From NCBI RefSeq assembly GCF_003194085.1, contig NZ_CP023994.1:496001-560000 (forward strand): a stretch of DNA of 64,000 nt, written 5' to 3'. The translations under genes and the position numbers were made by a program. Positions 2,618 through 38,784 of this stretch are shown here, in pieces (positions within the stretch are counted from its first letter, which is position 1; every line of letters starts with the position of its first letter). This stretch comes from Aurantimicrobium photophilum (GTDB taxonomy: Bacteria > Actinomycetota > Actinomycetes > Actinomycetales > Microbacteriaceae). The notes beneath the pieces were generated by a model that saw only the letters and a list, made by a program, of their open reading frames with translations, searched no databases and was not told the origin of the DNA.

Positions 2618-2642
2618 AACTCTGGGCTGGTGCATAACTCGT

Positions 2643-2659
2643 TCATAGTGTCCTCATAG
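2643..2659 (+). promoter_or_regulatory. 11-nt-period direct repeat, candidate response-regulator site
   Basis: TCATAG occurs at 2643-2648 and again at 2654-2659, exactly 11 nt apart and preceded by GT to give GTTCATAG. One-turn direct repeats are the usual binding geometry of OmpR/PhoB-family regulators, and GTTCA resembles the first half of actinobacterial PHO boxes. A similar pair stands before the HtrA-like gene. The regulator is inferred and does not lie in this window. Confidence 0.45.
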
Positions 2660-2728
2660 CTTCGTTCTGCATTGTGTAATTACCGGCCACAAGGTCAGAG
2701 CTCATAACGAACGTAAGGAGGCATGCAG

Positions 2729-3232
2729 ATGCCAAAGAACGACAACAACGACAACCTCGACAACGCAGAGGCAACTCAGACTCCTGCTGAGTACACCCCC
2801 GAAGCTGCAGCAGAGGAAACTGAAGAAACAGTTACCCCCATCACCGATGCTCGATCCAAGCGTCGCCTCGGTACCGGAGCCATCATCGGCATCTCGGCAG
2901 CCAGCGTTGCCCTGCTTGCCGGTGTATTCGGCGGCGGCATGGCAGTCGCGAACGTCATCGGTCACGGTGGAGCTCCTGCACTCGGCCTTGCTGGACAGGG
3001 TCCTGCTCAAGGTCACATGGGTGATGGTGATGGCGATGGCGATGGTCCTCACGGCAAGCCAGGTCACGGCCCTAAGGGTGGCATGGCTGGCGCGCCACAG
3101 GGTGGACTCGAGGCTGATGGTTCTATGCCGGGCAACGTTCCTCACAAGCACGATGCCAACGGTAACGACATCATTCCTGAGGGTTACCCCACCACTACAC
3201 CTAGTACCACCCCCAGCACCACTACGAACTAA
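2729..3232 (+). CDS. Membrane-anchored His/Gly/Asp-rich protein of unknown function
   Basis: I do not recognise this 167-aa protein. It has an acidic, Pro/Thr/Glu-rich N-terminus (about 1-45), a short basic SKRR, one transmembrane helix (about 50-75), then a low-complexity outer part. That part is rich in Gly, His and Asp, with a GDGDGDGDG tract and several H-G/H-x-K motifs, and ends in a Thr/Ser/Pro tail. The predicted topology is N-in, C-out. ATGs lie at 2723 and 2729. AAGGAGG (2715-2721) is 7 nt from the second and overlaps too closely with the first, so 2729 is chosen. The neighbouring copA suggests, but does not prove, metal binding by the His-rich tail. The upstream repeats suggest envelope-stress or phosphate-type regulation shared with the HtrA-like gene. 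Confidence 0.75.
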   Translation: MPKNDNNDNLDNAEATQTPAEYTPEAAAEETEETVTPITDARSKRRLGTGAIIGISAASVALLAGVFGGGMAVANVIGHGGAPALGLAGQGPAQGHMGDGDGDGDGPHGKPGHGPKGGMAGAPQGGLEADGSMPGNVPHKHDANGNDIIPEGYPTTTPSTTPSTTTN

Positions 3233-3252
3233 GTAGTTCTTTATCCATCAGT

Positions 3253-3272
3253 GTCGTCCCAACCGGGGCGGC
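3253..3272 (+). terminator. Hairpin terminator candidate before copA
   Basis: GTCGTCCC and GGGGCGGC form an 8-bp stem with two G-U pairs and an AACC loop, 20 nt after the stop of the His-rich protein. No U-run follows, so it may be a weak or I-type terminator. Confidence 0.5.
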
Positions 3273-3340
3273 ATTGATGCGTTAAGCGGGAATACACTGG
3301 AGTGAAACAACGTTTAAGTCGAGTGAGGAATGAGGTTGCT

Positions 3341-5572
3341 ATGGTAAACCAGACCACATCGACAATTGTCTTGGGTGTTGAGGGGATGACCTGCTCAAGC
3401 TGCGTTGCCCGGGTTGAGAAAAGCTTGAATGAACTCCCCGGTGTGACAGCTGCCGTGAACCTCGCGATGCACAGCGCAAAGGTTGAATACCCCTCGACGG
3501 TTAGTGAAGAACAGTTGGTGCAACAGGTCGAGAAGATCGGTTACACCGCCACACTTCCTCACCACGAAGTAGTTGAAGACGAGGTTCTTCTCGACGGCCG
3601 TGCCGGAAAAGTCACTCTGCTCGAGCGTTTGGTGATTGCCATTGTGCTTTCGGTTCCCGTCATTGTTTTGGGCATGGTTCCTGCCTGGCAATTCACCTAC
3701 TGGCAGTGGATTTCTTTGCTGTTGACCACTCCTGTGGTGTTCTGGTGCGGTTTGCCTTTCCACCGAGCGACTTTTTTGAATCTTCGCCACGGCACCCTCA
3801 CCATGGACACGCTCATCACCATGGGCACGTTCGCTGCCTATGGCTGGTCGGTCTATGCCCTGTTCTTTGGTGCTGCCGGTGATCCCCACATGCACCACAC
3901 CATGGAGTTTTTTGCGTGGCAGGCAGACCCCACCCTCAATATTTATTTCGAAGCTGCTGCCGGTGTGACCACATTCCTCCTGCTCGGACGCTATCTCGAA
4001 GAGAAGTCTCAACGCAGTGCAGGTGCTGCACTGCGCGCACTGGGTGAGCTCAAGGCAACCGAGGCAACGCGGATTGTCGACGGCGTGGAAGAGAGAATTC
4101 CTGCTTCTGAACTTCGTGTGGGGGAGCTTTTTGTAGTTCGCCCCGGTGAAATCATTGCCACCGATGGTGTGGTGGTGGAAGGTCAAGCTGCCGTTAATGA
4201 GAGCGCATTGACGGGGGAAAGCTTGCCGGTTGAAGTGGTCGCAGAATCACGCGTCACTGGTTCCACGATTGTCCTGGATGGCCGACTTGTTGTTCGTGCA
4301 ACCCAGGTGGGGCAGAACACTCGCATTGCCCAACTTGCTGCACTCGTGGAGGATGCCCAACTTCACAAGGCAGCGGTACAAAAGCTTGCAGATCGAATCT
4401 CTGCTGTGTTTGTGCCCATTGTGATCGGCATTGCGGTCGTCACGATTATGGGGTGGGCAATAGCTGGAGCGCCTCTTGCCGTGGGTTTCACGGCAGCAAT
4501 CGCTGTTTTGGTTATTGCATGCCCGTGTGCTTTGGGGTTGGCAACGCCTGTAGCTCTCATGGTGGGAACCGGCCGTGCCGCACAGATGGGCATCATTATT
4601 TCTGGTCCCGATGCCATTGAGAGCTCTTCACACATTCGCACGGTTGTTCTCGACAAGACCGGAACAGTGACCACGGGCCACATGAGTGTGAGCGAAGTGT
4701 TCATTACTGGCGCTGAGGAAGATGCGGCACTGCTGCGCATTGCCGCACTGGAAGCTGGTTCAGAGCACCCCATAGCCCGAGCAATCCTCTCCTATGTCAC
4801 AGACCATGCGGGGGCTTCGCTTCCTGTAGTTACTGACTTTCGCTCAGTTGCCGGGCAGGGCGTGCAGGGAGTTATTGAGGGAGTGAGAATTGCTGTGGGC
4901 ACGACAGCGTGGATGGACTCTCACGGTTTCTCGCTCTCGGAAGAAAATGAAACTCAACTAGTTGCCGCTCGAGCCGGGGGAGCCACTGCAATTCTCGCGG
5001 GTTGGGATTCTCAGGTTCGCGCGATCATTGCGGTGGCAGACACCATCAAGGAAGACTCTGCTGAAGCAATAATCAGACTCGTTGAGCTCGGTCTTGAACC
5101 CATTTTGCTCACCGGTGATCATGAAGAAGCTGCTCACGCGATTGCCCAGAAAGTCGGCATCTCTCGCGTGATTGCCGGAGCAAGTCCCGAAAGCAAGGTA
5201 GAGGTCGTCAAGGCTCTGCAGGCTGATGGGAAGCAGGTTGCAATGGTGGGAGATGGCGTCAACGACGCCGCTGCCTTGGCTCAGGCAAACCTTGGTATTG
5301 CGATGGGAACCGGAACCGATGTGGCCATTGCAGCAAGTGACCTCACCTTGGTTCGTGGCACCCTCTCCGCGGCAGTAGATGCCCTGGAGCTTTCGCGCAA
5401 AACACTGCGCATTATTCACGGCAACCTGTTCTGGGCTTTTGCCTATAACGTCGCCGCAATACCCCTTGCTGCACTAGGTTTCTTGAACCCCATGTTGGCG
5501 GGAGCTGCCATGGCATTCTCGAGTTTGTTCGTTGTGCTCAATTCACTGCGTCTTCGCAGATTCGCACGCTAG
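3341..5572 (+). CDS. copA: Copper-exporting P1B-type ATPase
   Basis: The 743-aa pump exports Cu(I) from the cytoplasm using ATP. It has one N-terminal heavy-metal-associated domain with GMTCSSC (Cys18 and Cys21) and about eight membrane helices. The copper-selective CPC motif lies at about 394-396, the phosphorylation motif DKTGT at about 438, SEHPIARA in the nucleotide-binding domain and GDGVNDAAAL at about 637, all complete. Two starts are possible: GTG 3302 (TACACT lies 3 nt before it) and ATG 3341. The ATG is preferred because GAGG precedes it by 5 nt and the HMA domain begins there as in relatives; the longer form would add 13 residues. No copper chaperone or CsoR/CopY-type regulator gene is adjacent. 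Confidence 0.95.
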   Translation: MVNQTTSTIVLGVEGMTCSSCVARVEKSLNELPGVTAAVNLAMHSAKVEYPSTVSEEQLVQQVEKIGYTATLPHHEVVEDEVLLDGRAGKVTLLERLVIAIVLSVPVIVLGMVPAWQFTYWQWISLLLTTPVVFWCGLPFHRATFLNLRHGTLTMDTLITMGTFAAYGWSVYALFFGAAGDPHMHHTMEFFAWQADPTLNIYFEAAAGVTTFLLLGRYLEEKSQRSAGAALRALGELKATEATRIVDGVEERIPASELRVGELFVVRPGEIIATDGVVVEGQAAVNESALTGESLPVEVVAESRVTGSTIVLDGRLVVRATQVGQNTRIAQLAALVEDAQLHKAAVQKLADRISAVFVPIVIGIAVVTIMGWAIAGAPLAVGFTAAIAVLVIACPCALGLATPVALMVGTGRAAQMGIIISGPDAIESSSHIRTVVLDKTGTVTTGHMSVSEVFITGAEEDAALLRIAALEAGSEHPIARAILSYVTDHAGASLPVVTDFRSVAGQGVQGVIEGVRIAVGTTAWMDSHGFSLSEENETQLVAARAGGATAILAGWDSQVRAIIAVADTIKEDSAEAIIRLVELGLEPILLTGDHEEAAHAIAQKVGISRVIAGASPESKVEVVKALQADGKQVAMVGDGVNDAAALAQANLGIAMGTGTDVAIAASDLTLVRGTLSAAVDALELSRKTLRIIHGNLFWAFAYNVAAIPLAALGFLNPMLAGAAMAFSSLFVVLNSLRLRRFAR

Positions 5573-5643
5573 ATTGAATTAAGCGCAATAAGCACTACCT
5601 CGCCGGCTGTGAAGTCGACCTGACTTATCCAGAATTGGCGACA

Positions 5644-6738
5644 ATGACACTCAGCTCTACCCTTGGTCCTCTCCGCTCAACAGAGCCGAAAGATCCCAAC
5701 CGTAAGCCTCTGACCAGCTCATATGCAGCGCTCATGAAAGCTGTGACCCAAGCTGGCTTGATGCGCAAGCGTCCCGCGTTCTACATCACCTTGTTTGTAG
5801 GGCTTTCTCTCGCTCTGGGTGGTTTGATTACCGGGTTTGTGCTGATCGGTGACTCCTGGTTCCAGCTGTTGATTGCTGCTGGTTTGGGTATTTTGCTGAC
5901 TCAGTTTGCTTTCATTACCCACGAAGCCTCCCACCGTCAGGTGTTTGCCTCGGGAAAGCTCAATGACTGGAGCGGTCGCATTCTGGCTACCGCCGTGGTC
6001 GGTATTTCTTATGCCTGGTGGATGAATAAGCACACCAAGCACCACATCAACCCCAACACCGTGGGCAAAGACCCTGATATCGAGTGGGACACCGTCTCGT
6101 TTCAGGAAGTGGATGCGGTCAAGCAGAAGGGTTTCCTGCGTTGGATTACCCAGCGTCAGGGGTATCTCTTCTTCCCACTGCTCACCCTCGAGGGAATCAA
6201 CCTGCACTTCCGTTCGATCCTGACTCTGTTCCAGAAGGAGCGTCTTGAGGGTCGTGCCGTCGAACTGACTCTCATTGCTCTGCGATTGAGTGCCTACGTT
6301 GCCGTGATCTTCCTCTTCTTGCCTCTCGGTATGGCCTTTGCTTTCTTAGGTGTTCAACTCGCTGTCTTTGGTGTCTACATGGGAGCATCATTTGCCCCTA
6401 ACCACAAGGGCATGCCGATGATTCCTAAAGAGAACCGCGTGGACTTCATGACCAAGCAGGTGCTGACCTCTCGCAACATCAAGGGTGCAGGCGCTACCGC
6501 GTTTATGGGTGGGTTGAACTACCAGATCGAGCACCACTTGTTCCCCAGCATGGCTCGCCCACACCTGCGCAAGGCACGTCTCATTGTGAAGCAGCACTGT
6601 GCAACCGAGGGTGTTCCTTACACAGAGACCACGCTGATGCGCTCCTACGGCATCGTCATCGCCTACCTGAACAAAGTCGGCTTGGCAGCGCGCGATCCGT
6701 TCGATTGTCCTGAAGCCGACCGTATGCGTCGTCGCTAG
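5644..6738 (+). CDS. Membrane fatty-acid desaturase
   Basis: This 364-aa integral membrane di-iron desaturase introduces a double bond into fatty acyl chains. The three histidine boxes are intact: HEASH (about 93-97), HTKHH (about 130-134) and QIEHH (about 293-297). The last box, with Gln in first position, is typical of the front-end/linoleoyl-CoA-like desaturase class, although no cytochrome b5 domain is fused. About four to five hydrophobic helices surround the boxes. A TTG at 5635 would add three residues; the ATG at 5644 is chosen. No convincing Shine-Dalgarno is seen for either. Adjustment of membrane fluidity is the family role; the substrate is not determinable here. Confidence 0.88.
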   Translation: MTLSSTLGPLRSTEPKDPNRKPLTSSYAALMKAVTQAGLMRKRPAFYITLFVGLSLALGGLITGFVLIGDSWFQLLIAAGLGILLTQFAFITHEASHRQVFASGKLNDWSGRILATAVVGISYAWWMNKHTKHHINPNTVGKDPDIEWDTVSFQEVDAVKQKGFLRWITQRQGYLFFPLLTLEGINLHFRSILTLFQKERLEGRAVELTLIALRLSAYVAVIFLFLPLGMAFAFLGVQLAVFGVYMGASFAPNHKGMPMIPKENRVDFMTKQVLTSRNIKGAGATAFMGGLNYQIEHHLFPSMARPHLRKARLIVKQHCATEGVPYTETTLMRSYGIVIAYLNKVGLAARDPFDCPEADRMRRR

Positions 6739-6741
6739 ACT
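6736..6741 (+). promoter_or_regulatory. -10 box TAGACT fused to the desaturase stop codon
   Basis: The TAG stop of the desaturase gene (6736-6738) is the first half of TAGACT, and the next ATG follows after exactly 6 nt (6748). This gives a leaderless promoter with no intergenic DNA of its own. Confidence 0.5.
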
Positions 6742-6747
6742 TTTTAC

Positions 6748-7104
6748 ATGGCAAAAAAGCAAGCAGAACCTGAGCTCATTCGTCCCGGCATCGTGCCTGG
6801 ACTTGCAGGTGTCGCAGCGATGTTTATTGGTATGGGTGTCTACGGTTCCGACTGGTACATCACCATCTTGTTCGTGGTGAGCATCTTGGCCGCCATCCTT
6901 TCGGTGTTCTCGTGGCAGTGGGCTGATCCTAAGAAGTGGGTCTTCCTTCCACTGTTCTTGTTGATCGCTATTTTTTGGAATCCCATCGTTCGACTGACAG
7001 ACGGCATCACTCCGGGAATTCAGTGGTGGATGCTTCTCCAGACCGGAGCGGCTGCCGTATTCTTCCTCGGAGGATTCCTGATTAAGACCCCTGCTCCGAA
7101 GTAG
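6748..7104 (+). CDS. Small four-helix membrane protein (DUF6804-like)
   Basis: This 118-aa protein is almost wholly hydrophobic, with about four transmembrane helices (about 15-33, 36-54, 62-80, 90-112) and short charged ends. The pattern, including an F-W-N-P-I/V turn after the third helix, recalls small DUF6804-type proteins of Microbacteriaceae; this is from memory and unverified. No catalytic motif is visible. It starts 9 nt after the desaturase stop, with its -10 box formed from that stop codon. Confidence 0.75.
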   Translation: MAKKQAEPELIRPGIVPGLAGVAAMFIGMGVYGSDWYITILFVVSILAAILSVFSWQWADPKKWVFLPLFLLIAIFWNPIVRLTDGITPGIQWWMLLQTGAAAVFFLGGFLIKTPAPK

Positions 7105-7203
7105 TAGACTAAATCCGCACCACAACCTTCGTTTCTACTGTCGCCGGCGCTAACGCGTGATGCGCGAGGTACCTTCTGGGGGAGGTGCAGTTTGGGGCAT
7201 GAC

Positions 7204-7218
7204 ACAAGCACTGCTTGT
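7204..7218. repeat. 15-nt perfect palindrome upstream of the SNF2-type gene
   Basis: ACAAGCA-C-TGCTTGT is a perfect inverted repeat with a one-base centre, 37 nt before the helicase start in a 150-nt gap. It has operator-like size and symmetry; it could also be a small hairpin. No function can be assigned. Confidence 0.35.
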
Positions 7219-7254
7219 TTGTGATGTCATCGTTTCTTTAGTCATGGAGACCAA

Positions 7255-9372
7255 GTGGCCCGTACCGGCACTCGTCGTAACACCCTCGATAACTCGGGGC
7301 TCATTCCTATCCTCGCCCGCAAGGTGCGCGAGGTGGAGGCAAAAGCTCAGACCGGCAAGAAGGTTGGTCCTACCAACCGCACCAAGTTCCAGGTCATCGC
7401 ATTCCTCGTGCGTGAAGAGCGTGCACGCGTCAAAGGTGACGCGTCACTGACAGATGCTTCACGTGCTGAACAGCTCAAGCGTCTTGATGGTGTTGCCACC
7501 ATCCTGGCCAAGACGGCAGCTCGTGACACTTCACTGATTCAGCTTCTTGAAGTTGACCACGCAACCAGTCCTGTGGCGCAAAAAATGCGCCGTGACTGGC
7601 TGGTTGAATCCGGTGCTGAGATCAACCCTGAAGACCTCATCATCACTACCGAACAGGCAAAGCCTGTTCAGGAGTTCGCTCCCGAACTTGCTGAGAAGCA
7701 GGTTCTGCCTCTTTCAGTCAAGGCACGTCTGAAGTCGACTCCCTTCTTAGAACCAGACTTCAGCAAGCCAGCGACCGGTTCTATCCCCGTGATGCGCCTG
7801 TCGAACTGGGAGCTGTTGGGTCCTTTGTTCAAGTCCTTTGAAACCGGTGCTGGTGGTGGCTCGGCATGCATGAACATGCCCGCTGTTCCCAAGTTTGACC
7901 GCTACTCACCTCAGGGTCGCGAGCTCATGCCACACCAGATTCGCTTCATTGAGAGCGTGCGCGAAGGTCACCGCACCTTCCTGCTGGCAGATGAGCCTGG
8001 TCTGGGTAAGACTGCACAGTCTCTCATTGCAGCATCCGTTGCCAACGCGTTCCCTCTTCTGGCCATCGTTCCCAACGTGGTGAAGATGAACTGGGCTCGT
8101 GAAGTTGAGCGCTGGATTCCTGGCCGCAAGGCAACCGTCATTCACGGTGACGGTACGGACGTGGACGCCTTCGCCGACGTGTTCATCGTCAATTACGAAG
8201 TTCTGGACCGCCACCTGTCCTGGATTGGCCAGATGGGCTTCAAGGGCATGGTTGTTGATGAAGCGCACTTCATCAAGAACCTCACCTCGCAGCGCTCCAA
8301 GCACGTACTGGCATTGGCAGACCGCATCGTCGCGCGCACGCCTGGTCACAACCCACTTCGTATTGCCCTGACAGGTACACCGCTGATCAACGACATTGAT
8401 GACTTCCGCGCTATCTGGAAGTTCCTGGGGTGGATTGACGGCGAGAAGCCTTCGGCTGAACTCACCGCCAAGCTGGAGGCTATTGGTCTCACCCCTGCAG
8501 ATCAAGGCTTCTATGCCTCTGCCCGCGACACCGTGGTGTCGATGGGTATTGTTCGTCGCCGCAAGATTGACGTGGCCAAGGATCTTCCTGCCAAGCGCGT
8601 GGTGGATCTTCCCGTTGAGCTCGACGACGAACTGGGTAACTCCATCAAGGCTGCCGAAGCAGAGCTGGCTAAGCGCCTGCTCGAGCGTTACAACCGCTTC
8701 ACCGTATCCGGTAATTTCCGTGGTTCCACCACGGAACTTATCCGCATGGTTGCGCAGCAGGAACTCGATGAGTCCAAGGGCCAGAAGACCGGAGAGAACG
8801 TCTTCACCATGGTTCGCAAGATTGGTCAGGCAAAAGCGGGACTTGCTTCCGACTACGCAGCACAGCTTGCTCGTTCGGTGGGCAAGGTTGTCTTCTTCGC
8901 TAAGCACATTGACGTCATGGACGCCGCAGAGCGCGCCTTTGCCGCCCAGGGCATCAAGTCCGTCTCCATCCGTGGTGACCAGAGCACCTCTGCTCGCCAG
9001 GATGCCATTGACGCCTTCAATAAGGACGAGTCAGTTCAGGTTGCGGTTTGTTCGCTCACCGCAGCTGGTGTTGGTTTGAACCTGCAAGCATCTTCCAACG
9101 TGGTGTTGGCGGAACTGTCCTGGACCTCTGCCGAGCAGACCCAGGCCATTGACCGTGTTCACCGTATTGGTCAGGAAATGCCAGTTACGGCATGGCGCAT
9201 TATTGCCGCCCAGACCATTGACGCGAAGATCGCTGAGCTCATAGACAGCAAGCGTGGTCTTGCAGCCCGTGCACTCGAGGGTGAAGAGATTGAAGCAGGC
9301 TCGCAGGATTCCATCCAGCTCGATGCTCTGGTTCACATTCTTACTCGTGCAATCTCTACGCAGTACGCATAG
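7255..9372 (+). CDS. SNF2-family DEAH helicase/translocase
   Basis: The 705-aa protein is a superfamily-2 dsDNA translocase. After a basic N-terminal region of about 220 residues that I cannot assign, the motor begins with MPHQIRFIESV. Walker A is DEPGLGKT (246-253), Walker B is DEAH (335-338), then LTGTPLIN, and in the second RecA lobe QAIDRVHRIGQ (Arg finger region, about 630-640). The compact layout without a long insertion resembles the SMARCAL1/HepA-like branch. The GTG start at 7255 has GGAGA 4 nt upstream, which is short but acceptable. It is not adjacent to restriction-modification or defence genes, so a general repair or remodelling role is more likely than defence. Confidence 0.88.
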   Translation: MARTGTRRNTLDNSGLIPILARKVREVEAKAQTGKKVGPTNRTKFQVIAFLVREERARVKGDASLTDASRAEQLKRLDGVATILAKTAARDTSLIQLLEVDHATSPVAQKMRRDWLVESGAEINPEDLIITTEQAKPVQEFAPELAEKQVLPLSVKARLKSTPFLEPDFSKPATGSIPVMRLSNWELLGPLFKSFETGAGGGSACMNMPAVPKFDRYSPQGRELMPHQIRFIESVREGHRTFLLADEPGLGKTAQSLIAASVANAFPLLAIVPNVVKMNWAREVERWIPGRKATVIHGDGTDVDAFADVFIVNYEVLDRHLSWIGQMGFKGMVVDEAHFIKNLTSQRSKHVLALADRIVARTPGHNPLRIALTGTPLINDIDDFRAIWKFLGWIDGEKPSAELTAKLEAIGLTPADQGFYASARDTVVSMGIVRRRKIDVAKDLPAKRVVDLPVELDDELGNSIKAAEAELAKRLLERYNRFTVSGNFRGSTTELIRMVAQQELDESKGQKTGENVFTMVRKIGQAKAGLASDYAAQLARSVGKVVFFAKHIDVMDAAERAFAAQGIKSVSIRGDQSTSARQDAIDAFNKDESVQVAVCSLTAAGVGLNLQASSNVVLAELSWTSAEQTQAIDRVHRIGQEMPVTAWRIIAAQTIDAKIAELIDSKRGLAARALEGEEIEAGSQDSIQLDALVHILTRAISTQYA

Positions 9373-9375
9373 CCT
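9370..9375 (+). promoter_or_regulatory. -10 box TAGCCT fused to the helicase stop codon
   Basis: The helicase TAG stop (9370-9372) opens TAGCCT, and the next ATG begins exactly 6 nt later at 9382 without a ribosome-binding site. Confidence 0.5.
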
Positions 9376-9381
9376 GTAACC

Positions 9382-10113
9382 ATGAACGAGTGGCTCACCG
9401 CTGCAGGCGCAGGCCTGCTTGCCGGTGGTGCTCTGTTTGTGGGCGCACTCATCGCATGGTTCGTTAACGTTCCTGCACGTGTCGTGGCCAGCATCATGGC
9501 TTTTGGCGCCGGTGTGCTGATTTCGGCACTGGCCTTTGACCTGGTTGGCGAAGCCATGGCGGAATCGGGATTAGTACCCACCGTGTCAGGCTTTGCCGTG
9601 GGCGCCATTGTCTATGTGGGCGTCAACATTTTGCTCGATGCCCGGGATGCCCGTAATCGCCGAGGATCTGCCGAAGGCCCAGGAACAGGAACCGGTATTG
9701 CTGTGGGTGCACTCCTCGACGGTGTGCCTGAATCCATGGTGTTGGGTTTGTCCATGCTCGGCGGGCAGGGAGTGAGTATCCCTATTCTCACCGCTGTCAT
9801 CATCTCGAACTTGCCGGAGGGCCTCTCCAGCACAGCAGAGCTCAAGGCGGCGGGACGCAAGCCCCGCTTTGTCTTCTTGCTGTGGGGCGGCATTGCCCTT
9901 GCAGCGGCTATCTCCAGCCTCTTGGGTTTCACCATCTTGGCGGATGCTCCCGTGGAGCTCACCGGGTTCATCACGTCACTCGCGGCGGGCGCCATGCTGG
10001 CCATGATTTGCGACACCATGATTCCCGATGCCTTCCGCAAAGCACACAACTACACGGGGTTGCTAGCAACCTTGGGTTTCTTGGTGAGCTTTGTTATTCA
10101 CCAGCTGGCCTAG
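9382..10113 (+). CDS. ZIP-family metal transporter
   Basis: The 243-aa protein has about eight transmembrane helices and the ZIP core motifs DGVPESMVLG (about 113-122) and SNLPEGLSSTAE (about 138-149). These correspond to the metal-site helices IV and V, where well-studied ZIPs carry His residues (H-N-x-P-E-G). Here that His is Ser and no His replaces it, while the Pro-Glu pairs are kept. The family imports zinc, iron or manganese. The altered ligands leave the substrate, or even transport of a metal, open. It ends three bases from the convergent hydrolase gene. Confidence 0.85.
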   Translation: MNEWLTAAGAGLLAGGALFVGALIAWFVNVPARVVASIMAFGAGVLISALAFDLVGEAMAESGLVPTVSGFAVGAIVYVGVNILLDARDARNRRGSAEGPGTGTGIAVGALLDGVPESMVLGLSMLGGQGVSIPILTAVIISNLPEGLSSTAELKAAGRKPRFVFLLWGGIALAAAISSLLGFTILADAPVELTGFITSLAAGAMLAMICDTMIPDAFRKAHNYTGLLATLGFLVSFVIHQLA

Positions 10114-10116
10114 GAG

Positions 10117-11010
10117 TTAGTGCTCGTCCCAGAATGTGGCGAGCAGTTGTGCTGAGGCATGAGTGCGATCTGCATGTGCTGAGTGACCCGCGTTGGCGAT
10201 CACCCAATAGTCGGCACCGAGCTGCTCTGCCATGACGCGCTGCATCTCGATAGGCCAGGCATCATCATTGGCACCATGAGAGACAAGAACAGGTATGCCT
10301 GTGCGGGAAAGCTCGAGGGTGCGGTCAACTTGATCAATCAAAATGTTGATACCAGCTTCTAGCTGGGCAGGGTTCGTGCTCATCAGGCGGTCGTAGTAGT
10401 ACTGCTCAATGACGTTGAGCTCACCCTTGAGATCTGCTTCGGGATCGTTTCCGGTTGCCAACTGGTTTCCGACAAAGTAGGCACGGGGCCCGTGCTCTAT
10501 AAGACCAGCGCGTTGCTCCAGGAGGTCTCGACCCATGTTGCGCGGACCGCTGTTCCACATGGTCAAGCTGGCAAAGGGGGAGTGGTCTTGAAGAACTGCC
10601 TCGATGGACACAACACCACCGAAGCTGTGGCCCAAGAGATGTACGTGAGTGCCTAGACCGAGTTTCTGGATGACTTCGTGAATGTCCTGGCCTAAACGTG
10701 GAAGTTCGTAGCCAGCTGTGTCGTCAGGCCCTTCCGACAGGCACTGACCGCGCTGAGAGAAAGTGACGACCTTATAGCCACGCTCAGAGAGGGGCTGTAG
10801 TAAACCATTGAAGGTGTCTGCTGAGCTGGTGTAGCCAGGAATAAGCAGAGCGGTTCCCACGTGTTCACCCACGGGTTCAATCGAGATGGTCGCGAGTTTA
10901 TAGCCATCAATCTCAACGTGGCCTCGCACAGCTCGTTCAGGGATTTGTAAATCGAGAGAAATTCCATTGGCTTCAAGTTCTGTGCCGTTTGGTGGTAGCT
11001 GTGCGCTCAT
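10117..11010 (-). CDS. Alpha/beta-hydrolase, serine type
   Basis: The 297-aa protein has the alpha/beta-hydrolase pattern: an oxyanion-region strand LLIPGYTSSAD (about 54-64), the nucleophile elbow GHSFGG (about 125-130), the acid in SHGANDDAWP (about 245-254) and the catalytic His in NAGHSAHAD (near 280). It has no signal peptide, so it is cytoplasmic. It resembles lysophospholipase/monoacylglycerol-lipase-like hydrolases, but the substrate cannot be read from sequence. The start at 11010 has a TAACAT -10 box 6 nt upstream and looks leaderless. Confidence 0.85.
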   Translation of the reverse strand: MSAQLPPNGTELEANGISLDLQIPERAVRGHVEIDGYKLATISIEPVGEHVGTALLIPGYTSSADTFNGLLQPLSERGYKVVTFSQRGQCLSEGPDDTAGYELPRLGQDIHEVIQKLGLGTHVHLLGHSFGGVVSIEAVLQDHSPFASLTMWNSGPRNMGRDLLEQRAGLIEHGPRAYFVGNQLATGNDPEADLKGELNVIEQYYYDRLMSTNPAQLEAGINILIDQVDRTLELSRTGIPVLVSHGANDDAWPIEMQRVMAEQLGADYWVIANAGHSAHADRTHASAQLLATFWDEH

Positions 11011-11016
11011 ACCTTC

Positions 11017-11022
11017 ATGTTA
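11017..11022 (-). promoter_or_regulatory. -10 box TAACAT of the hydrolase gene
   Basis: On the minus strand TAACAT is followed by 6 nt and the ATG at 11010. GAAGG inside the spacer is too close to act as a normal Shine-Dalgarno. Confidence 0.4.
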
Positions 11023-11222
11023 CGACGGGAGTCCATGCACCGCTGTGGTTCAATGCACAGAGTAGAAGAGTTCGAAGGTTCAACGAGTTATCGAGGGTTC
11101 TCGACTGTGTAGTAGACATTTATGTTTATTTCTCTTACGTGGATACAGTTGCCCAATCTGCTCGCTTTCAGTGAGCATAAGGAAAGACGACATTTTTCTC
11201 ATTTCATCCAGAAAAGGTTCAT

Positions 11223-12476
11223 GTGGATCCTCTATTCGTCGTCGTGCTCGTTGTAGCACTCGCGCTTTTCTTTGACTTCACCAACGGTTTCCATGACACC
11301 GCAAACGCAATGGCAACCCCTATTGCAACTGGTGCGCTCAAGCCTCGTACCGCTGTTCTCATTGCAGCGGTGTTGAACCTTGTAGGTGCATTCCTTTCCA
11401 CTGCGGTGGCAAAGACCATCTCAGTTGATCTCATTAATGAAGACGTCACCATCAAGGTGGAAATGATTTTTGCCGGTTTGTGTGGTGCGATCTTGTGGAA
11501 CCTCACCACGTGGATCTTGGGATTGCCCTCCTCTTCGTCACACGCACTCTTTGGTGGACTGATTGGTGCGGCTATCGCTAGTGCTGGTTTCGATGCGGTC
11601 AACTTCATCAAGGTTGTGGAGAAGGTCATCCTTCCTTCCCTCTTCGCCCCTGTGATTGCTGGTGTGGCTGCCTACCTGGCTACCAAGCTTGCCTACATCA
11701 TTACTGCGCGTTCGCAGGCAGAGCGTGCTCGTACTGGAATCGGTACAGGACGTTCACGCTTCCGCACCGGACAGATCTTCTCGTCCACGCTGGTTGCGCT
11801 TTCGCACGGTACTAACGATGCTCAGAAGACCATGGGTGTGATCACGTTGGTTCTTATCACCGCTGGTGTGCTCGGGAAAGACAGTGGCGTTCCGCTATGG
11901 GTCATGATTGCAGCAGCTCTTGCTATTGCACTCGGCACCTACATGGGTGGATGGCGCATCATCAAGACCATGGGAACTGGGCTTTCTGAAATTAAGCCAG
12001 CCCAAGGTCTTGCCGCCGAAACCGCAACCGGTGTCACCATCTTGGCCTCGACCAACCTTGGTTTTGCTCTCTCGACAACTCAGGTTGCGTCAGGATCTGT
12101 TATTGGTGCAGGCCTGGGCCGTAAGGGTGGAACTGTCCGCTGGAACAAGGCAAGCCACGTCGTTGGCGCATGGTTCCTCACCCTCCCTGCTGCTGCCATC
12201 GTTGGAGCGTTCGCGGCATGGATTGCAGGAACGGGTCCCTTCGGAATCTTGGTTGACGCAGTTCTCGTTACCGGTGTCATCATCGCGTTGTTCCAGATAA
12301 GCAAGCGCAATGCCGTTACCCACACCAACGTCCTCTCTGAGGTCGAGGGTGCGAGCGAAATCGTGGAAACTCCTGCACAGCGTCGCCGTGCAGAGAAGGC
12401 CGCCAAGCTCGCTGCAAAGAAGGCTGCCGAAAAGGCCGCCAAGCAAGCTAAGAAGAACAAGAAGGGCAAGAACTAA
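11223..12476 (+). CDS. Inorganic phosphate transporter, PiT family
   Basis: The 417-aa membrane protein is a cation-coupled phosphate importer. It shows the two inverted PiT signatures, FDFTNGFHDTANAMA near the N-terminus (about 18-32) and SHGTNDAQKTMGVI (about 198-211), among about ten helices. The C-terminus is a cytosolic Ala/Lys-rich helix of about 35 residues, probably a coiled or membrane-surface helix. The GTG at 11223 has GAAAAGG 5 nt upstream; the ATG at 11221 is in another frame. The 212-nt upstream gap shows no clear operator that I can name. The stop overlaps the start of the next small gene by one base, implying coupled translation. Confidence 0.93.
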   Translation: MDPLFVVVLVVALALFFDFTNGFHDTANAMATPIATGALKPRTAVLIAAVLNLVGAFLSTAVAKTISVDLINEDVTIKVEMIFAGLCGAILWNLTTWILGLPSSSSHALFGGLIGAAIASAGFDAVNFIKVVEKVILPSLFAPVIAGVAAYLATKLAYIITARSQAERARTGIGTGRSRFRTGQIFSSTLVALSHGTNDAQKTMGVITLVLITAGVLGKDSGVPLWVMIAAALAIALGTYMGGWRIIKTMGTGLSEIKPAQGLAAETATGVTILASTNLGFALSTTQVASGSVIGAGLGRKGGTVRWNKASHVVGAWFLTLPAAAIVGAFAAWIAGTGPFGILVDAVLVTGVIIALFQISKRNAVTHTNVLSEVEGASEIVETPAQRRRAEKAAKLAAKKAAEKAAKQAKKNKKGKN

Positions 12477-12733
12477 TGACTATCGCTTGGGATGCATTCT
12501 TATCCGTTGTTCTCACCTCGATTGGTGGCGCAGCCGTCATCGTGTCGCTGTATTCACTCGGCGTTCGTTTCGTCACTGATGCAGAGCTGCTTGCCCCCAA
12601 GGCAGCACAGGGTGATGGTTCTGCTGTGCGCAAGGAATCTTTCTTCCGCAGTGTTGCCTACATCTGCTTCACGCTCTGCGCTATTGCGGTTCTGTATGAG
12701 GTCTACTTGATCATTCCGTTCTTCCACAAGTAG
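12476..12733 (+). CDS. Small two-helix membrane protein coupled to the phosphate transporter
   Basis: This 85-aa protein has two transmembrane helices (about 10-30 and 58-80) with a polar loop between them. I cannot name a function. Its ATG shares one base with the TAA of the phosphate transporter gene (TAATG), and a strong terminator follows, so the two form a closed operon. That makes an accessory or regulatory subunit of the transporter a reasonable inference. Confidence 0.78.
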   Translation: MTIAWDAFLSVVLTSIGGAAVIVSLYSLGVRFVTDAELLAPKAAQGDGSAVRKESFFRSVAYICFTLCAIAVLYEVYLIIPFFHK

Positions 12734-12747
12734 GACGAACCCCCAGC

Positions 12748-12775
12748 AGAACCCCTCACGAAAGTGAGGGGTTCT
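12748..12775 (+). terminator. Intrinsic terminator of the phosphate-transporter operon
   Basis: AGAACCCCTCAC pairs perfectly with GTGAGGGGTTCT (12 bp) around a GAAA tetraloop, 15 nt after the stop codon. Confidence 0.9.
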
Positions 12776-12925
12776 GTCGCTTAACCCCATATGTGGTGGT
12801 GTAATAGCAGAAAATTCACTTCAAGTAGTGGTTAAGACTTTCCGACGAAAAACTCTAGGCAAACTCTCAGGCGCGGTAGTCTCAACAACGTAGTTCCCTT
12901 ACCCCTACTCAAAAAGGAGATCGGT

Positions 12926-14422
12926 TTGTCGTCGTCGACCACCGAGAAGCCCAAGTCTGGCTTCGCAGCAACACTCGATCGCTACTTCGAAATTACCAAG
13001 CGTGGTTCCACCATTGGTACGGAGTTCCGTGGCGGTCTCGTCATCTTCATGACGATGGTTTACATCATCATCTTGAACCCCATCATCTTGGCTTTCAGCC
13101 CCGACGTAAACGGCAACGTTATCGGCGGCGGTGCAGCTGACGCATTCGAATTTGCACCACAGGCAATTGCTTCGGCAACTGCACTTGCTGCAGGTCTGAT
13201 GACCATCGCATTCGGTTTCGTTGCACGTCTGCCATTCGCAATTGCAGCTGGTCTGGGTATCAACTCATTCCTCGCCGTAACACTGGTCAAGGACGTCACC
13301 TGGCAGGAGGCCATGGGCCTCGTCGTCATCGACGGAATCATCATCCTCATCCTCGCGGTCACTGGTCTTCGCACCATGATCTTCACCGCAGTTCCTGCTG
13401 CGCTGAAGACCGCGATCACCGTGGGTATTGGTCTCTTCATTGCATTCATCGGTCTTGTTGACGGTGGCCTTGTTCGTCGCACTGACGTTGGTCCTGTTCC
13501 TGTTGGACTCGGTGTTGGCACCGACCACGGAATTGGTCTCCCCACCACCATCTTCATCATTGGTGTTCTCACCATCGGTGTTCTGATGGCGCTGCGCATT
13601 CGTGCAGCAATCTTGATCGGTCTGGTCTCGACCACCGTTATCGCCATCATTGCGGAAGCACTCTTCCCCGTAGGCGGCAAGTTCGTCAACGGTGAGTTCG
13701 TGACCCCCTTCGGTTGGGACACCACCATTCCTGGTCTGCCTACCAGCATCTTTGCTGTGCCTGACTTCTCCACCATCGGTGAAGTAAGCCTCTTCGGTTC
13801 CTTCGAGCGCATCGGTGCTCTCGCAGCAATCATGCTCGTGTTCACCCTCGTGTTCTCGAACTTCTTCGACGCAATGGGCACCATGACCGGTCTGTCCAAG
13901 CAGGCTGGCCTTGCTGATAAGGACGGTAACTTCCCACGTCTGAAGTCCGCACTGGTTGTTGAAGGTGCTGGTGCTGTTGTTGGTGGTTTCACCTCGACCT
14001 CATCCAACACCGTCTACATCGAGTCTGCTTCCGGTATCGCCGGTGGTGCACGTACCGGTCTGGCCAACATCGTTACCGGTGTTCTGTTCCTGGTTGCAAT
14101 GTTCTTCGCACCTTTGACCTCTGTAGTCCCCATCGAGGTTGGTGCTTCGGCACTGGTCATCGTGGGTGCACTCATGATGTCTCAGGTTGTTGACATCGAC
14201 TGGAAGGACTGGAGCATCTCGTTCCCTGCCTTCCTGACCATCATCATGATGCCTTTCACCTACTCGATCGCAAACGGTATCGGTATCGGCTTCATCACCT
14301 GGGTAGTCATCCGCGCATTCGCAGGTAAGGGTAAGGAAATTCACCCCATCCTCTGGATTGTTGCAGCTGGATTCGTGCTCTACTTCGTATCAGCACCTCT
14401 TACTGCTGCTCTCGGCGGCTAG
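12926..14422 (+). CDS. NCS2-family purine permease (AzgA type)
   Basis: The 498-aa protein has 12-14 hydrophobic segments. Typical AzgA-like features are GTEFRGGLVIFMTMVYII near the N-terminus, AIAAGLGINSFLA and the NFFDAMGTMTGL segment. The group imports adenine, guanine or hypoxanthine with protons. The start is a TTG (12926) supported by AAAGGAGA 6 nt upstream. The 192-nt upstream gap contains the previous terminator and, at 12877-12882, a TAGTCT that could be the -10; I see no purine riboswitch. The gene stands alone, closed by a terminator. Confidence 0.92.
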   Translation: MSSSTTEKPKSGFAATLDRYFEITKRGSTIGTEFRGGLVIFMTMVYIIILNPIILAFSPDVNGNVIGGGAADAFEFAPQAIASATALAAGLMTIAFGFVARLPFAIAAGLGINSFLAVTLVKDVTWQEAMGLVVIDGIIILILAVTGLRTMIFTAVPAALKTAITVGIGLFIAFIGLVDGGLVRRTDVGPVPVGLGVGTDHGIGLPTTIFIIGVLTIGVLMALRIRAAILIGLVSTTVIAIIAEALFPVGGKFVNGEFVTPFGWDTTIPGLPTSIFAVPDFSTIGEVSLFGSFERIGALAAIMLVFTLVFSNFFDAMGTMTGLSKQAGLADKDGNFPRLKSALVVEGAGAVVGGFTSTSSNTVYIESASGIAGGARTGLANIVTGVLFLVAMFFAPLTSVVPIEVGASALVIVGALMMSQVVDIDWKDWSISFPAFLTIIMMPFTYSIANGIGIGFITWVVIRAFAGKGKEIHPILWIVAAGFVLYFVSAPLTAALGG

Positions 14423-14437
14423 TAAAGAACCACTCGC

Positions 14438-14471
14438 ACAAGCGGGAGTGCCTTCGGGCTCTCCCGCTTGT
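14438..14471 (+). terminator. Intrinsic terminator of the purine permease gene
   Basis: ACAAGCGGGAG pairs with CTCCCGCTTGT (11 bp), and the loop itself contains GCC-TTCG-GGC, giving a long stacked hairpin followed by a T-rich stretch. Confidence 0.88.
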
Positions 14472-14519
14472 CGTTTAAGTGGATGTGGATAACTCAGGAA
14501 CCACTCCACGCATATTGAG

Positions 14520-14525
14520 TAGGTT
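14520..14525 (+). promoter_or_regulatory. -10 box TAGGTT of the lipoprotein gene
   Basis: TAGGTT is followed by 7 nt and the ATG at 14533, where the signal peptide starts. This spacing supports the shorter start and a leaderless transcript. Confidence 0.45.
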
Positions 14526-14532
14526 TCCTCAC

Positions 14533-15063
14533 ATGCGTGCGAAACCTCTCATTGCCATCCCGCTGATAGCCGTTGCTCTGGCGGGCTGTTCGGCTCAAAC
14601 ACCTACTCCCCAAGAAACGACAGCTGCACCTGAGCAGAAGCCCCTCTTTGCCACGGATGCAGAGGCCTTAGCTGCAGCAGAAGCCGCCTATGCAAACTAT
14701 CTCGAGGTCTCAGACCAGATAGCGAGAGACGGTGGAGCTAATCCAGAGAGATTGAAGGGGTTGTTGAGTAGTGATCAATATCAAACTGAAGTTTCTTCAT
14801 TTCAAAATTATGTAACCAAAGACATACATTCCTCCGGCCAGATGTCTTTTGATTCTTTACATATAGCCAGTTCTGATTCCGAGAATGTTTCCGCCTATCT
14901 TTGCCTGGATAGTTCACAAAGTCGGGTACTTGATTCCTCAGGAATTGACGTGACTCCTTCATCGAGGGAAGACCGGTGGCCATTATTTGTAACCTTTGAA
15001 TCAAAAAATGGCACTCTAGTTATTTCCGGAAGTGAAACGTGGACCGGAACAAACTTCTGCTGA
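14533..15063 (+). CDS. Lipoprotein of unknown function
   Basis: This 176-aa protein has a lipoprotein signal peptide: Arg/Lys N-terminus, hydrophobic core and lipobox LAGC with Cys at about residue 19. It should be lipid-anchored on the outer face of the membrane. The mature part starts with a Thr/Pro/Glu linker and continues into a small domain with two cysteines; I do not recognise it. A GTG at 14479 in frame would add 18 residues before the signal peptide and is unlikely. From about 14740 the codon use becomes visibly more A/T-rich than in the neighbours. Its end overlaps the next gene by 25 nt, so the two are probably cotranscribed. Confidence 0.75.
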   Translation: MRAKPLIAIPLIAVALAGCSAQTPTPQETTAAPEQKPLFATDAEALAAAEAAYANYLEVSDQIARDGGANPERLKGLLSSDQYQTEVSSFQNYVTKDIHSSGQMSFDSLHIASSDSENVSAYLCLDSSQSRVLDSSGIDVTPSSREDRWPLFVTFESKNGTLVISGSETWTGTNFC

Positions 15064-15893
15064 GTATTTTGGGCACGTCTTTCGTAGCACTTTCAATTGT
15101 GTTTTCATTTCCCAATCAAGCAATTGCTGCAACCTCATGTAGTTCAGCTGATCAGCGAATTGGCCTGTGCACTGGTGCCCAAACTTCCAATAACTCCGTA
15201 GATGTCTGGGCTCGATCAACTACTCCTGGTGGTTCGTCTTCTGTAGTCGTGCCTGCAGGTCGAAGTGGTGGTGGAACTCGCTCAACTAAACCCACGCCTT
15301 ATTACGCAACAGGGACGATTGCATTCAATTGTTTGGCTCGGCAATCAACGATTGCTAGTTGCCGCAGAACGCCCGCTCCGCCAGCCCCAGCACCAGTGAA
15401 CTACGCCCCGGTTACTTTGACGGATCTGGCCAATTTCGTTCCTCGGTCGGCATCTCTCACCTCACAGCCTCGGGGCTGGACCGTGGTGAATTTGAACACG
15501 AACTTTATTGCCGGAGCATCAACCCATGTGGTGGGCGGTTCGTTGTTTGGCCAATCTGCAGAGGTTCGCTTTACCCCGCATGCATATGACTGGAACTACG
15601 GTGATGGAGGTACTCAATCAACTGCTGTTTCTGGAGCACGGTGGGATGCTCTTGGATTACGCGAGTTCTCTGCCACTCCAACAAGTCACATCTATGCCAG
15701 TGAAGGAAGTTTCACCACTTCTGTTTCTGTTCGCTATGGCGTGGAATACCGCGTGGGCGGGGGAGCGTGGATCCCAGTTTCAGGAGAAGTCTCGAGTTCT
15801 GCGACCACGACGGTGGTGATTGTGGAAGGTGCTGACACTGTGTTGGCGGCTAGGGACTGTAATAAATCTCGAAGTAGTCAGAGCTGCAACTAA
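15039..15893 (+). CDS. Secreted protein with PKD-like domain
   Basis: The 284-aa protein has a signal peptide (about 1-30, ending in AIAA), a Ser/Gly/Pro-rich middle, and a C-terminal beta-rich region. The latter contains DWNYGDGG and HIYASEGSFTTSVSV, the pattern of PKD-type domains (D-G followed by H-x-Y-x-x-x-G). Cysteines occur in pairs near both ends. No enzyme motif is visible, so a role in the cell surface is only inferred. The GTG at 15039 lies inside the preceding lipoprotein gene, with GGAAG upstream. The pair may act together. Confidence 0.75.
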   Translation: MDRNKLLLSILGTSFVALSIVFSFPNQAIAATSCSSADQRIGLCTGAQTSNNSVDVWARSTTPGGSSSVVVPAGRSGGGTRSTKPTPYYATGTIAFNCLARQSTIASCRRTPAPPAPAPVNYAPVTLTDLANFVPRSASLTSQPRGWTVVNLNTNFIAGASTHVVGGSLFGQSAEVRFTPHAYDWNYGDGGTQSTAVSGARWDALGLREFSATPTSHIYASEGSFTTSVSVRYGVEYRVGGGAWIPVSGEVSSSATTTVVIVEGADTVLAARDCNKSRSSQSCN

Positions 15894-15904
15894 GTCACTT
15901 CGGC

Positions 15905-15910
15905 TAGCGT
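15905..15910 (+). promoter_or_regulatory. -10 box TAGCGT of the AlkD-like gene
   Basis: TAGCGT is followed by 6 nt and the GTG at 15917. The intervening GGGAGG touches the start codon and so cannot work as a normal ribosome-binding site, which favours leaderless expression. Confidence 0.4.
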
Positions 15911-15916
15911 GGGAGG

Positions 15917-16663
15917 GTGACTAATCAGACCACCTCTCCTCGCGTTGTTGAGGTGATGAACACATTGAATGCGCTGGGCAATCCAGTGATTGCTGCGCAT
16001 TCTCAGCGTTACTTCAAAACAGGTCCTGGAGAGTACGGCGAGGGCGATGTCTTTATCGGTATACGTGTTCCTGTCACGAGAACCGTTGTTCGCCAATTCA
16101 AAGACTTGAGTACTCCCGAGATTGTGGAGTTGGCTCAATCAACTGTTCATGAACACCGTTTGAGTGCGTTGCTGATTCTCACGAGTCAGTTCACACGCGC
16201 CAAGACAGTTCAGCAGCGGGCAGAGCTGTTCGAGATCTTGTTGATGCTGGTCTCCAGTGGTCACGTCAATAACTGGGACCTCGTAGATTCTTCTGCTCCC
16301 TATATCGGCGCTTATCTCCTGGAGATGCCTGACTACAGTGATCTCCTTCTTGCTCTTGCTCAGTCGGAAGATCTGTGGGAACGCCGGACAGCTGTGATGC
16401 TCACAGCGGCGTTGATTCGTGCAGGTATTTATCAACCCACACTTGAGCTATGTGAGCTACTCATGACAGACACACATGACCTCATTCACAAGGCCACTGG
16501 CTGGATGCTCCGCGTGGTGGGGGATCAAGACATCGCTGTACTACGAGGGTTCTTAGATACGTATTCGGCAACAATGCCCCGCACTATGTTGCGATACGCG
16601 ATTGAACATTTAGACAAGCCTGAACGGGACCACTATCTGAAGCAGAAGTCGCTGTTAGCCTGA
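15917..16663 (+). CDS. AlkD-like DNA alkylation repair protein
   Basis: The 248-aa protein is all-helical and fits the HEAT-repeat AlkC/AlkD glycosylases, which remove N3- and N7-alkylated purines. Diagnostic segments are YFKTGPGEYGEGDVFIGIRVP (read in part) near the N-terminus, NNWDLVDSSAPYI in the middle, where Trp-Asp lie in the DNA-binding groove, and LIHKATGWMLRVVG near the end. GTG 15917 fits a leaderless promoter. An in-frame ATG at 15956 preceded by GAGG is the alternative and would remove 13 residues outside the conserved part. Confidence 0.87.
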   Translation: MTNQTTSPRVVEVMNTLNALGNPVIAAHSQRYFKTGPGEYGEGDVFIGIRVPVTRTVVRQFKDLSTPEIVELAQSTVHEHRLSALLILTSQFTRAKTVQQRAELFEILLMLVSSGHVNNWDLVDSSAPYIGAYLLEMPDYSDLLLALAQSEDLWERRTAVMLTAALIRAGIYQPTLELCELLMTDTHDLIHKATGWMLRVVGDQDIAVLRGFLDTYSATMPRTMLRYAIEHLDKPERDHYLKQKSLLA

Positions 16664-16681
16664 ACAGGCACTCTTTTAGCC

Positions 16682-16732
16682 CTATGAGAAAACACTCAGA
16701 TAACGTTCAGCCTTCTCATAGCATTCACATAG
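16682..16732 (+). promoter_or_regulatory. Operator-like repeats upstream of the HtrA-like gene
   Basis: Two signals overlap here. CTATGAGAA (16682-16690) and TTCTCATAG (16713-16721) form a perfect 9-bp inverted repeat. TCATAG (16716-16721) and ACATAG (16727-16732) form a direct repeat with an 11-nt period, matching the arrangement at 2643-2659. An OmpR/PhoB-type regulator is the simplest reading. The inverted repeat could also be a weak terminator for the AlkD-like gene, but no T-run follows. Confidence 0.45.
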
Positions 16733-16774
16733 ATTCATTTGGAAAGCTAAAGGTGCTTGAAAGGAGCTTCTCGA

Positions 16775-38749: not shown

Positions 38750-38784
38750 ATCCCTTTATTTATAAGGATTTAGGTATCACGAGT

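Follow-up and report, generated by a model that had tools for sequence, protein, structure and literature searches.

As described in the accessible part of PMC4832192, PhoP of M. tuberculosis forms a tandem dimer on TCACAGC-N4-TCACAGC, trimer and tetramer binding was tested on longer arrays, and in the crystal structure with DNA Asn212 hydrogen-bonds the central C7 of TCACAGC. CutR of Streptomyces binds the word TAWATAAA (PMC12802291, accessible part) and TrcRS has the target Rv1057 in common with the envelope-stress-linked MprAB (PMC11895460, accessible part). Our literature search, beyond whose reach most subscription papers lay, found no TCATAG direct repeat of a response regulator, no work that brings together TrcR, MprA and PhoP homologues with two-component systems of Streptomyces, and none joining MprA and pepD here.

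An initial annotation of the window, by which we mean the whole stretch of 64,000 nucleotides that was analysed, had proposed that two envelope genes share a TCATAG-type direct repeat with an 11-nt period and that an MtrA- or PhoP-like regulator might own it. We consider it probable that these repeats are tandem-dimer operators of PhoP-like response regulators of the OmpR family at promoters without a recognisable -35, and that the array upstream of htrA is compound. The box arrays, their register, their conservation, their autoregulatory placement and the homology of the regulators are observed directly.

Repeats in the window and in the genome

Site 1 is TCATAG-tgtcc-TCATAG (2643-2659) and site 2 is TCATAG-cattc-ACATAG (16716-16732), both on the + strand. 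The repeats are thus present where they had been placed and on the same strand, and the counts in the window and in the genome back them. In the 64-kb window two exact copies of CATAG-N6-CATAG were counted, whereas the mean in shuffled sequences was 0.03 and none of 100 shuffles gave two copies. This word was picked after the sites had been seen and, therefore, the genome-wide tests are a fairer measure. The 1.748-Mb single-contig genome has six exact copies, two of which are the window sites. One of the other four (L003) lies in a helicase-like frame on the opposite strand, and the remaining three lie upstream of a ferric-reductase-like gene (L004), the gene of a response regulator which we call RR1 (L005), and the gene of a small protein (L006). 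A near-box is found one 11-nt step further in three of the arrays, namely, site 1, L004, and L005. When up to one mismatch was allowed in TCATAG-N5-TCATAG, the eight genomes of the genus, including this one, gave 80 matches compared to 5 for the reversed pattern. In this genome there were 10 such matches at eight places, one within a coding frame (L412), one abutting a start codon (L413), and six upstream of genes in the correct orientation, so that the repeat did not prove to be common outside promoters, which had been named as the outcome that would speak against it. The matches L003 and L035 are within coding frames and were set aside. A scan of the genome with three mismatches was too loose, giving at least 253 matches against 177 controls as listed up to about 1.30 Mb.

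The features at site 1 are as follows.
2632..2637, + strand: weak third box GCATAA of the site 1 array, 11 nt ahead of the next box
2643..2659, + strand: site 1, two RR1-type boxes TCATAG-N5-TCATAG, TCATAGnGTCCTCATAG in 8/8 genomes of the genus
2670..2675, + strand: putative -10 hexamer CATTGT, 10 nt past the last box, CA[TG]TGT in 8/8 orthologues
2729..3232, + strand: 167-aa protein with a polar N-terminus, a single hydrophobic segment and a His/Gly/Asp-rich outer part (from the translation)
3302..5572, + strand: neighbouring copper-type P1B ATPase with an HMA domain (from domain models)

The earlier description of the sites as pairs of boxes holds as far as the pairs go, but site 1 has a weak third box and site 2 is an array of four boxes. 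The gene downstream of site 1 may also start at 2723. Its 167-aa product matched none of the Pfam or NCBIfam models at E 0.001, and its orthologues could be translated downstream of site 1 in seven of the eight genus genomes, the eighth (L070) showing the start only. Both target proteins had been said to have the same topology, a polar N-terminus, one helix and an outer part, and this agrees with what we read by eye from their sequences. The P1B ATPase gene that follows the site 1 gene is perhaps a separate transcript. Between these two genes a GC-rich hairpin-like sequence was seen by eye in several orthologues; in the window itself searches at 3233-3301 turned up no inverted repeat and no terminator-like site.

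The regulators RR1 and RR2 and the kinase HK1

The RR1 gene (G000:C1:1526642-1527379, minus strand) is about 1.03 Mb from the window sites and is directly followed by the gene of a kinase, HK1, with HisKA, HATPase_c and HAMP domains. RR1 has a receiver domain (PF00072, 101.7 bits) and a winged-helix Trans_reg_C domain (PF00486, 93.2 bits), both above their cut-offs. Its own promoter carries TCTTAG-N5-TCATAG-N5-TCATAG in all eight genomes of the genus. A TCATAG array thus stands upstream of an OmpR-family regulator–kinase operon and, therefore, RR1 is the natural candidate for its owner. This supports the earlier view of the repeat as an OmpR/PhoB-type tandem operator. TrcRS is reportedly autoregulated, to go by the title of a cited study.

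Among solved relatives RR1 is closest to M. tuberculosis PhoP (273.8 bits), followed by PrrA (209.7 bits) and MtrA (174.5 bits), and its alignment with PhoP is free of gaps over the recognition helix. Of the two owners first suggested, the PhoP-like one is supported by this score and by the regulator's own array, and MtrA is not, RR1 scoring 202.7 bits with the MtrA model of NCBIfam, which has a cut-off of 300. None of the best 25 NCBIfam models listed for RR1 reaches its cut-off. That MtrA controls both genes has in its favour the same regulator family and the same spacing rule, besides its having been named at the outset, but the regulator whose promoter bears the array is PhoP-like and not MtrA-like, and we regard this reading as very improbable. 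FastTree grouped 197 rows in an RR1 clade with a support of 99, apart from the mycobacterial PhoP-type rows; the clade leaves out L239, L245, and L248, which bear the helix GDVNVVESYVSYLR of PhoP itself. Because the clade is separate from the mycobacterial PhoP-type rows, we call RR1 PhoP-like and not a PhoP orthologue. The two closest named relatives of RR1 are from Microbacteriaceae, in a list that may omit this genome and those near it, and on this ground the family is taken to be Microbacteriaceae.

A paralogue of RR1, RR2 (G000:C1:1407078-1407755), is 52% identical to it, and its best-scoring solved relative is again PhoP (256.7 bits). The promoter of RR2 carries TCTCAG-N5-[AG]TTCAG at the 11-nt step in all eight genus genomes. 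A scan of these genomes for the RR2 word TCAGNNNACNYTCAG with one mismatch was loose, giving 487 matches against 230 controls.

The outer stretch of HK1 is rich in His and Asp (RPGH, then DGD.DHDDRPN) and is conserved in 8/8 genomes. Since both HK1 and the site 1 protein have His/Asp-rich tracts and the targets are copper-linked and redox genes, we conjecture that the signal of HK1 is a metal or redox cue, as these features suggest.

Promoter anatomy

When the promoters were aligned, most shared a common register in which the last box is followed, after 10 nt, by a hexamer of the form NANNNT. In the RR1 promoter this is TCATAG-N10-CATACT and in the RR2 promoter ATTCAG-N10-GATACT. The hexamer is CATTGT at site 1, where TGTAAT (2675-2680) is an alternative -10, CACAAT before the multicopper oxidase operon described below, and AAAGCT before htrA. 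Upstream of the ferric-reductase gene it is CAGTTT, provided that a fourth box, CCTCAG, is counted as the last one. The promoter of a DUF2202 gene, with TCATAA as its second box, has no clean -10. In the RR2 promoters of the family a CAGATA[ACT]T anchor was present in 24/29, and in 23 of these 24 AG ends a box 10 nt before the anchor. All these -10 hexamers were assigned by register and are putative. No sigma-70 consensus pair was found in 2500-3400 or in 16500-17000, and the absence of such a pair at both window promoters fits an activator that would replace the -35.

On the gene strand, NCANAG pairs with the 11-nt period were present in 147 of 236 regulator promoters compared to at most 8 at periods of 7-10 and 12-16, and the shuffled mean was 1.0. 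On the opposite strand 28 of the 236 loci had 11-nt pairs, with at most 3 at other periods. This bears on the possibility that the repeats are chance words or core-promoter elements with CATAG lying within the -10. The near-match at L413, which abuts a start codon and is -10-like, and that at L412, which is in a coding frame, are what such words would look like, but the enrichment, the conservation, the sharp 11-nt period and the placement before a regulator refute this as a general account and we give it next to no weight. At L413 (G000:C1:151076-151092) TCAAAG-N5-TCATAG abuts the start codon of a gene for a secreted-protein-like product, and CATAGT there may be the -10 of a leaderless transcript. 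The -10 of RR1, CATACT, sits 6 nt ahead of the GTG start (L031, 4880, minus strand), which suggests that the RR1 mRNA is leaderless, and the same is suggested for the ferric-reductase gene.

A mechanism consistent with this anatomy is that RR1 would bind TCATAG boxes head to tail, one helical turn apart, and that its proximal subunit, 10 nt upstream of the -10, would recruit RNA polymerase. Binding, activation, the signal and a dual input at htrA are what we infer from sequence. RR1 would activate its own operon, the site 1 gene, an operon for ferric-reductase, FMN-binding and ApbE proteins, and an operon for a DUF305 protein and a multicopper oxidase; the DUF2202 gene is perhaps another target. 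At htrA both regulators would have an input, RR2 through the upstream boxes of its type and RR1 through a box of its own type further downstream.

The array upstream of htrA

The features at site 2 are as follows.
16694..16710, + strand: distal half of site 2, two RR2-type boxes ACTCAG-N5-GTTCAG, with ACTCAG-N5-NYTCAG in 8/8 genomes of the genus
16716..16732, + strand: proximal half of site 2, RR1-type TCATAG and ACATAG, assigned with box matrices and the genus alignment
16743..16748, + strand: putative -10 hexamer AAAGCT, 10 nt past the last box, AA[AT]GCT in 8/8
16775..18103, + strand: HtrA-like protease (trypsin-like domain and PDZ) with one N-terminal hydrophobic segment, Pfam models above cut-off

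The protease scored 265 bits with the NCBIfam model degP_htrA_DO, under its cut-off of 416.2, and an orthologue is present in all eight genus genomes. Site 2 has four boxes at the 11-nt step from 16694, ACTCAG, GTTCAG, TCATAG, and ACATAG. Over the eight genomes the array reads ACTCAG, NYTCAG, NCATAG, and then C[AC]CAG or ACATAG, the last box being ACATAG in this genome only and CACAG or CCCAG in the other seven, and conservation is higher in the RR2-type half than in the RR1-type one. With box matrices built from 148 Ser-type RR1 boxes outside the genus and 48 RR2 boxes of the family, the four htrA boxes of this genome gave RR1/RR2 scores of -2.4/7.0, -10.0/7.1, 10.6/0.9, and 8.3/-1.3, and across the eight genomes the RR1 score of the third box ranged from 8.3 to 11.9 and its RR2 score from -2.6 to 1.5. 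The two boxes of site 1 scored 7.5/-0.8 and 10.6/0.9, and by these scores site 1 is an array of the RR1 type.

Because the distal boxes match RR2 and the third box matches RR1, two inputs at htrA are proposed, and we read site 2 as a compound, or hybrid, array at which one regulator acting alone is possible. Sites 1 and 2 probably differ in kind. That both sites belong to one shared regulon, as had first been supposed, is therefore doubtful, the distal boxes of site 2 matching the operator of the PhoP-like paralogue RR2. A real contender, which we nevertheless think has the poorer chance of being right, is that there are two regulons, with site 1 belonging to RR1 and htrA to RR2 alone, the CATAG boxes there being degenerate RR2 boxes. 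The scores of the distal boxes, whose type is kept in 8/8 genomes, and the conserved RR2 promoter with its TCTCAG-N5-[AG]TTCAG agree with this, but the third box keeps its RR1 score and not an RR2 score throughout the genus. RR1 driving both genes alone, with the distal htrA boxes idle, would amount to the single regulon first supposed and is unlikely. It would suit the proximal pair of this genome, which scores well with RR1 and stands in the -10 register, but the ACATAG half is replaced in the other seven genomes and the distal boxes, which would be superfluous, keep their ACTCAG-N5-NYTCAG in all eight. Secretion-stress control of the CutR kind has a precedent in Streptomyces htrA3, which CutR activates in S. 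venezuelae (PMC12802291, accessible part), but the single copy of the CutR word in the window, at 38755-38762, is far from both genes, and we think such control extremely improbable here. CutR was rejected as owner of the site, TAWATAAA not being in the htrA promoter. To return to the compound array, an exact TCATAG pair was absent from all 27 htrA loci read in other genera (L147-L173); six of them had a pair that agrees at 10 or more of 12 positions, and many of these promoters, when read by eye, had 11-nt arrays mixing CACAG, AATAG, and TTCAG boxes.

Other targets in the genus and the family

In all eight genomes of the genus arrays precede the RR1-HK1 operon, the site 1 gene, and, as TCATAAGTAATTCATAG, the ferric-reductase gene. 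At the last of these the start of the gene was read in 4/8 genomes and the whole operon in this genome (G000) only, where it encodes Ferric_reduct, FMN_bind and ApbE domains. The second operon encodes a DUF305 protein and a multicopper oxidase; for its array the surrounding sequence was read in G000, G002, and G003, similar words were seen in G004 and G007, and none were listed for G001, G005, and G006. In the literature within our reach we found nothing joining DUF305, multicopper oxidase and a two-component system. In this genome the DUF2202 gene has TCATAG-N5-TCATAA upstream. Membrane and exported proteins among the targets support the small envelope set that had been foreseen.

In 120 genomes of the family the TCATAG pair was matched exactly 43 times, compared to 6 for the reversed control; these 43 matches are spread over 27 genomes, and 93 genomes had none. 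Twenty-five of the 43 matches, at 24 promoters, precede RR1-type genes, 22 of them before RR1, by the coordinates of the regulator genes, and 3 before RR1-like genes. The 22 fall at 21 promoters because at one of these two matches overlap. Two matches precede ferric-reductase-like genes in other genera, and the start of one of these genes scored 26.1 bits with Ferric_reduct, for which the cut-off is 28. Of the remaining 16, G000 accounts for three (out of its four) and G001 for one. Eight of the other 12 loci were read by eye; they precede three genes for membrane proteins, two for similar exported proteins, and one each for a helix-turn-helix protein, a secreted protein, and a glycosyltransferase. 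The arrays before the two similar exported proteins (…PDETAGPYPGDGSNG…) are exact and are from two other genera (L481, L496); the 150-aa start of the L481 protein gave no Pfam hit. A palindrome like ATACCCCCGGGGGTAT was seen near the TCATAG array of the DUF2202 gene (L030, about 1535-1552) and near the arrays of three relatives (L066, L068, L079). We take this palindrome to resemble CsoR/CstR operators, which hints at a second, repressor input near the DUF2202 array.

Residue 212 and the central base of the box

Compared with the recognition helix of PhoP, that of RR1 has Asn212 replaced by Ser and Ser216 by Ile. The promoters of 291 regulator loci, 247 with RR1-type helices and 44 with GD/GE-type helices, were scanned for NCAXAG-N5-NCAXAG with X left free; they came from a first set of 243 loci less 4 unparsed, 2 duplicates and 1 with a short upstream region, and a second set of 60 loci less 4 unparsed and 1 duplicate. 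For RR1-type helices the proximal X was as follows.
Asn: C 80, T 9, A 3, G 1 (93 paired of 135 loci)
Ser: T 75, C 4, A 2, G 1 (82 paired of 102)
His: G 5, C 1 (6 paired of 7)
Thr: T 2 (2 paired of 3)

Among the 44 GD/GE-type loci a pair was found in 3 of 15 with Asn, all with C, and an NCANAG pair in none of those with Ser (5), Gly (18), Arg (3) or Ala (3). Over all 291 loci the exceptions were Asn without C in 13/96, Ser without T in 7/82, and His with C in 1/6. When all boxes were counted the trend was weaker, with C for Asn in 205/228, T for Ser in 146/185, G for His in 12/16, and T for Thr in 4/6. A gene-strand NCANAG pair was absent from 54/150 Asn, 25/107 Ser, 1/3 Thr, 1/7 His, and 24/24 Gly/Arg/Ala loci. 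At 28 of 236 loci (for example, L207, L215, and L399) an opposite-strand pair also lies upstream of the regulator gene, perhaps as part of a divergent promoter or an inverted array. The boxes of opposite-strand pairs obey the same rule, Asn having C in 44/47, Ser T in 19/23, and His G in 6/6.

In the tree of 247 rows one clade holds the 105 Ser/Thr rows and a second one the 7 His rows, which means two evolutionary switches, both matching the rule. A test on independent pairs has one pair per switch and is too small to reach significance. The Ser to T rule fails in the GD-type background because, with relaxed boxes, 4/5 such Ser loci show a central C. The RR2-type boxes, from regulators with Gly, have a central C and a variable third base. 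Residue 212 may not act alone, since position 216 and other residues of the helix change too. Our tentative reading is that within the RR1 clade residue 212 would set one base of the box, Asn going with TCACAG, Ser or Thr with TCATAG, and His with TCAGAG. A change from Asn to Ser at the base of the family would have gone along with a recasting of the operators that split them from those of sister lineages with the spacing fixed, the RR1 helix background would be needed, and htrA would integrate two PhoP-like paralogues with diverged box words. We had put this residue code at somewhat short of even and lowered it slightly further because four GD-type Ser loci carry C. A search for literature on recognition-helix coevolution yielded structural papers.

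Comparison with known systems

What emerges is a motif, a regulator and a list of targets for a two-component system that is widespread in the family, a match to RR1 at E ≤ 1e-85 being present in 180 of 199 genomes, and flavin-based electron transfer, multicopper oxidase and possibly HtrA are thereby linked to PhoP-like control. The trend at residue 212 offers a testable specificity code with a structural basis in the contact of PhoP Asn212 with C7. As in TrcRS of M. tuberculosis, to judge from the accessible account of it, RR1 and HK1 are a regulator–kinase pair. Like CutRS and htrA3 in the accessible description of Streptomyces, there is two-component control of an HtrA-type protease gene, proposed here from sequence, but the array is an 11-nt TCATAG array and not the TAWATAAA of CutR. 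The ferric-reductase operon of this genome has the same gene set as actinobacterial MsrQ-like/FMN-binding/ApbE electron-transfer clusters (PMC8238504), for which the accessible part of that source names no regulator that we saw. The closest likeness is to M. tuberculosis PhoP (PDB 3r0j, 5ed4; PMC4832192, accessible part), with which RR1 shares the OmpR/PhoB fold, head-to-tail 11-nt repeats (a 7-bp motif and a 4-bp spacer in PhoP), the TCA.AG skeleton and arrays of more than two boxes. Unlike the PhoP operators, however, the RR1 boxes of the genus are TCATAG with a central T for C, and unlike PhoP, RR1 has Ser and Ile for Asn212 and Ser216 in its helix, belongs to a separate clade, and has, among the targets read here and with no PhoP regulon set beside them, other genes.
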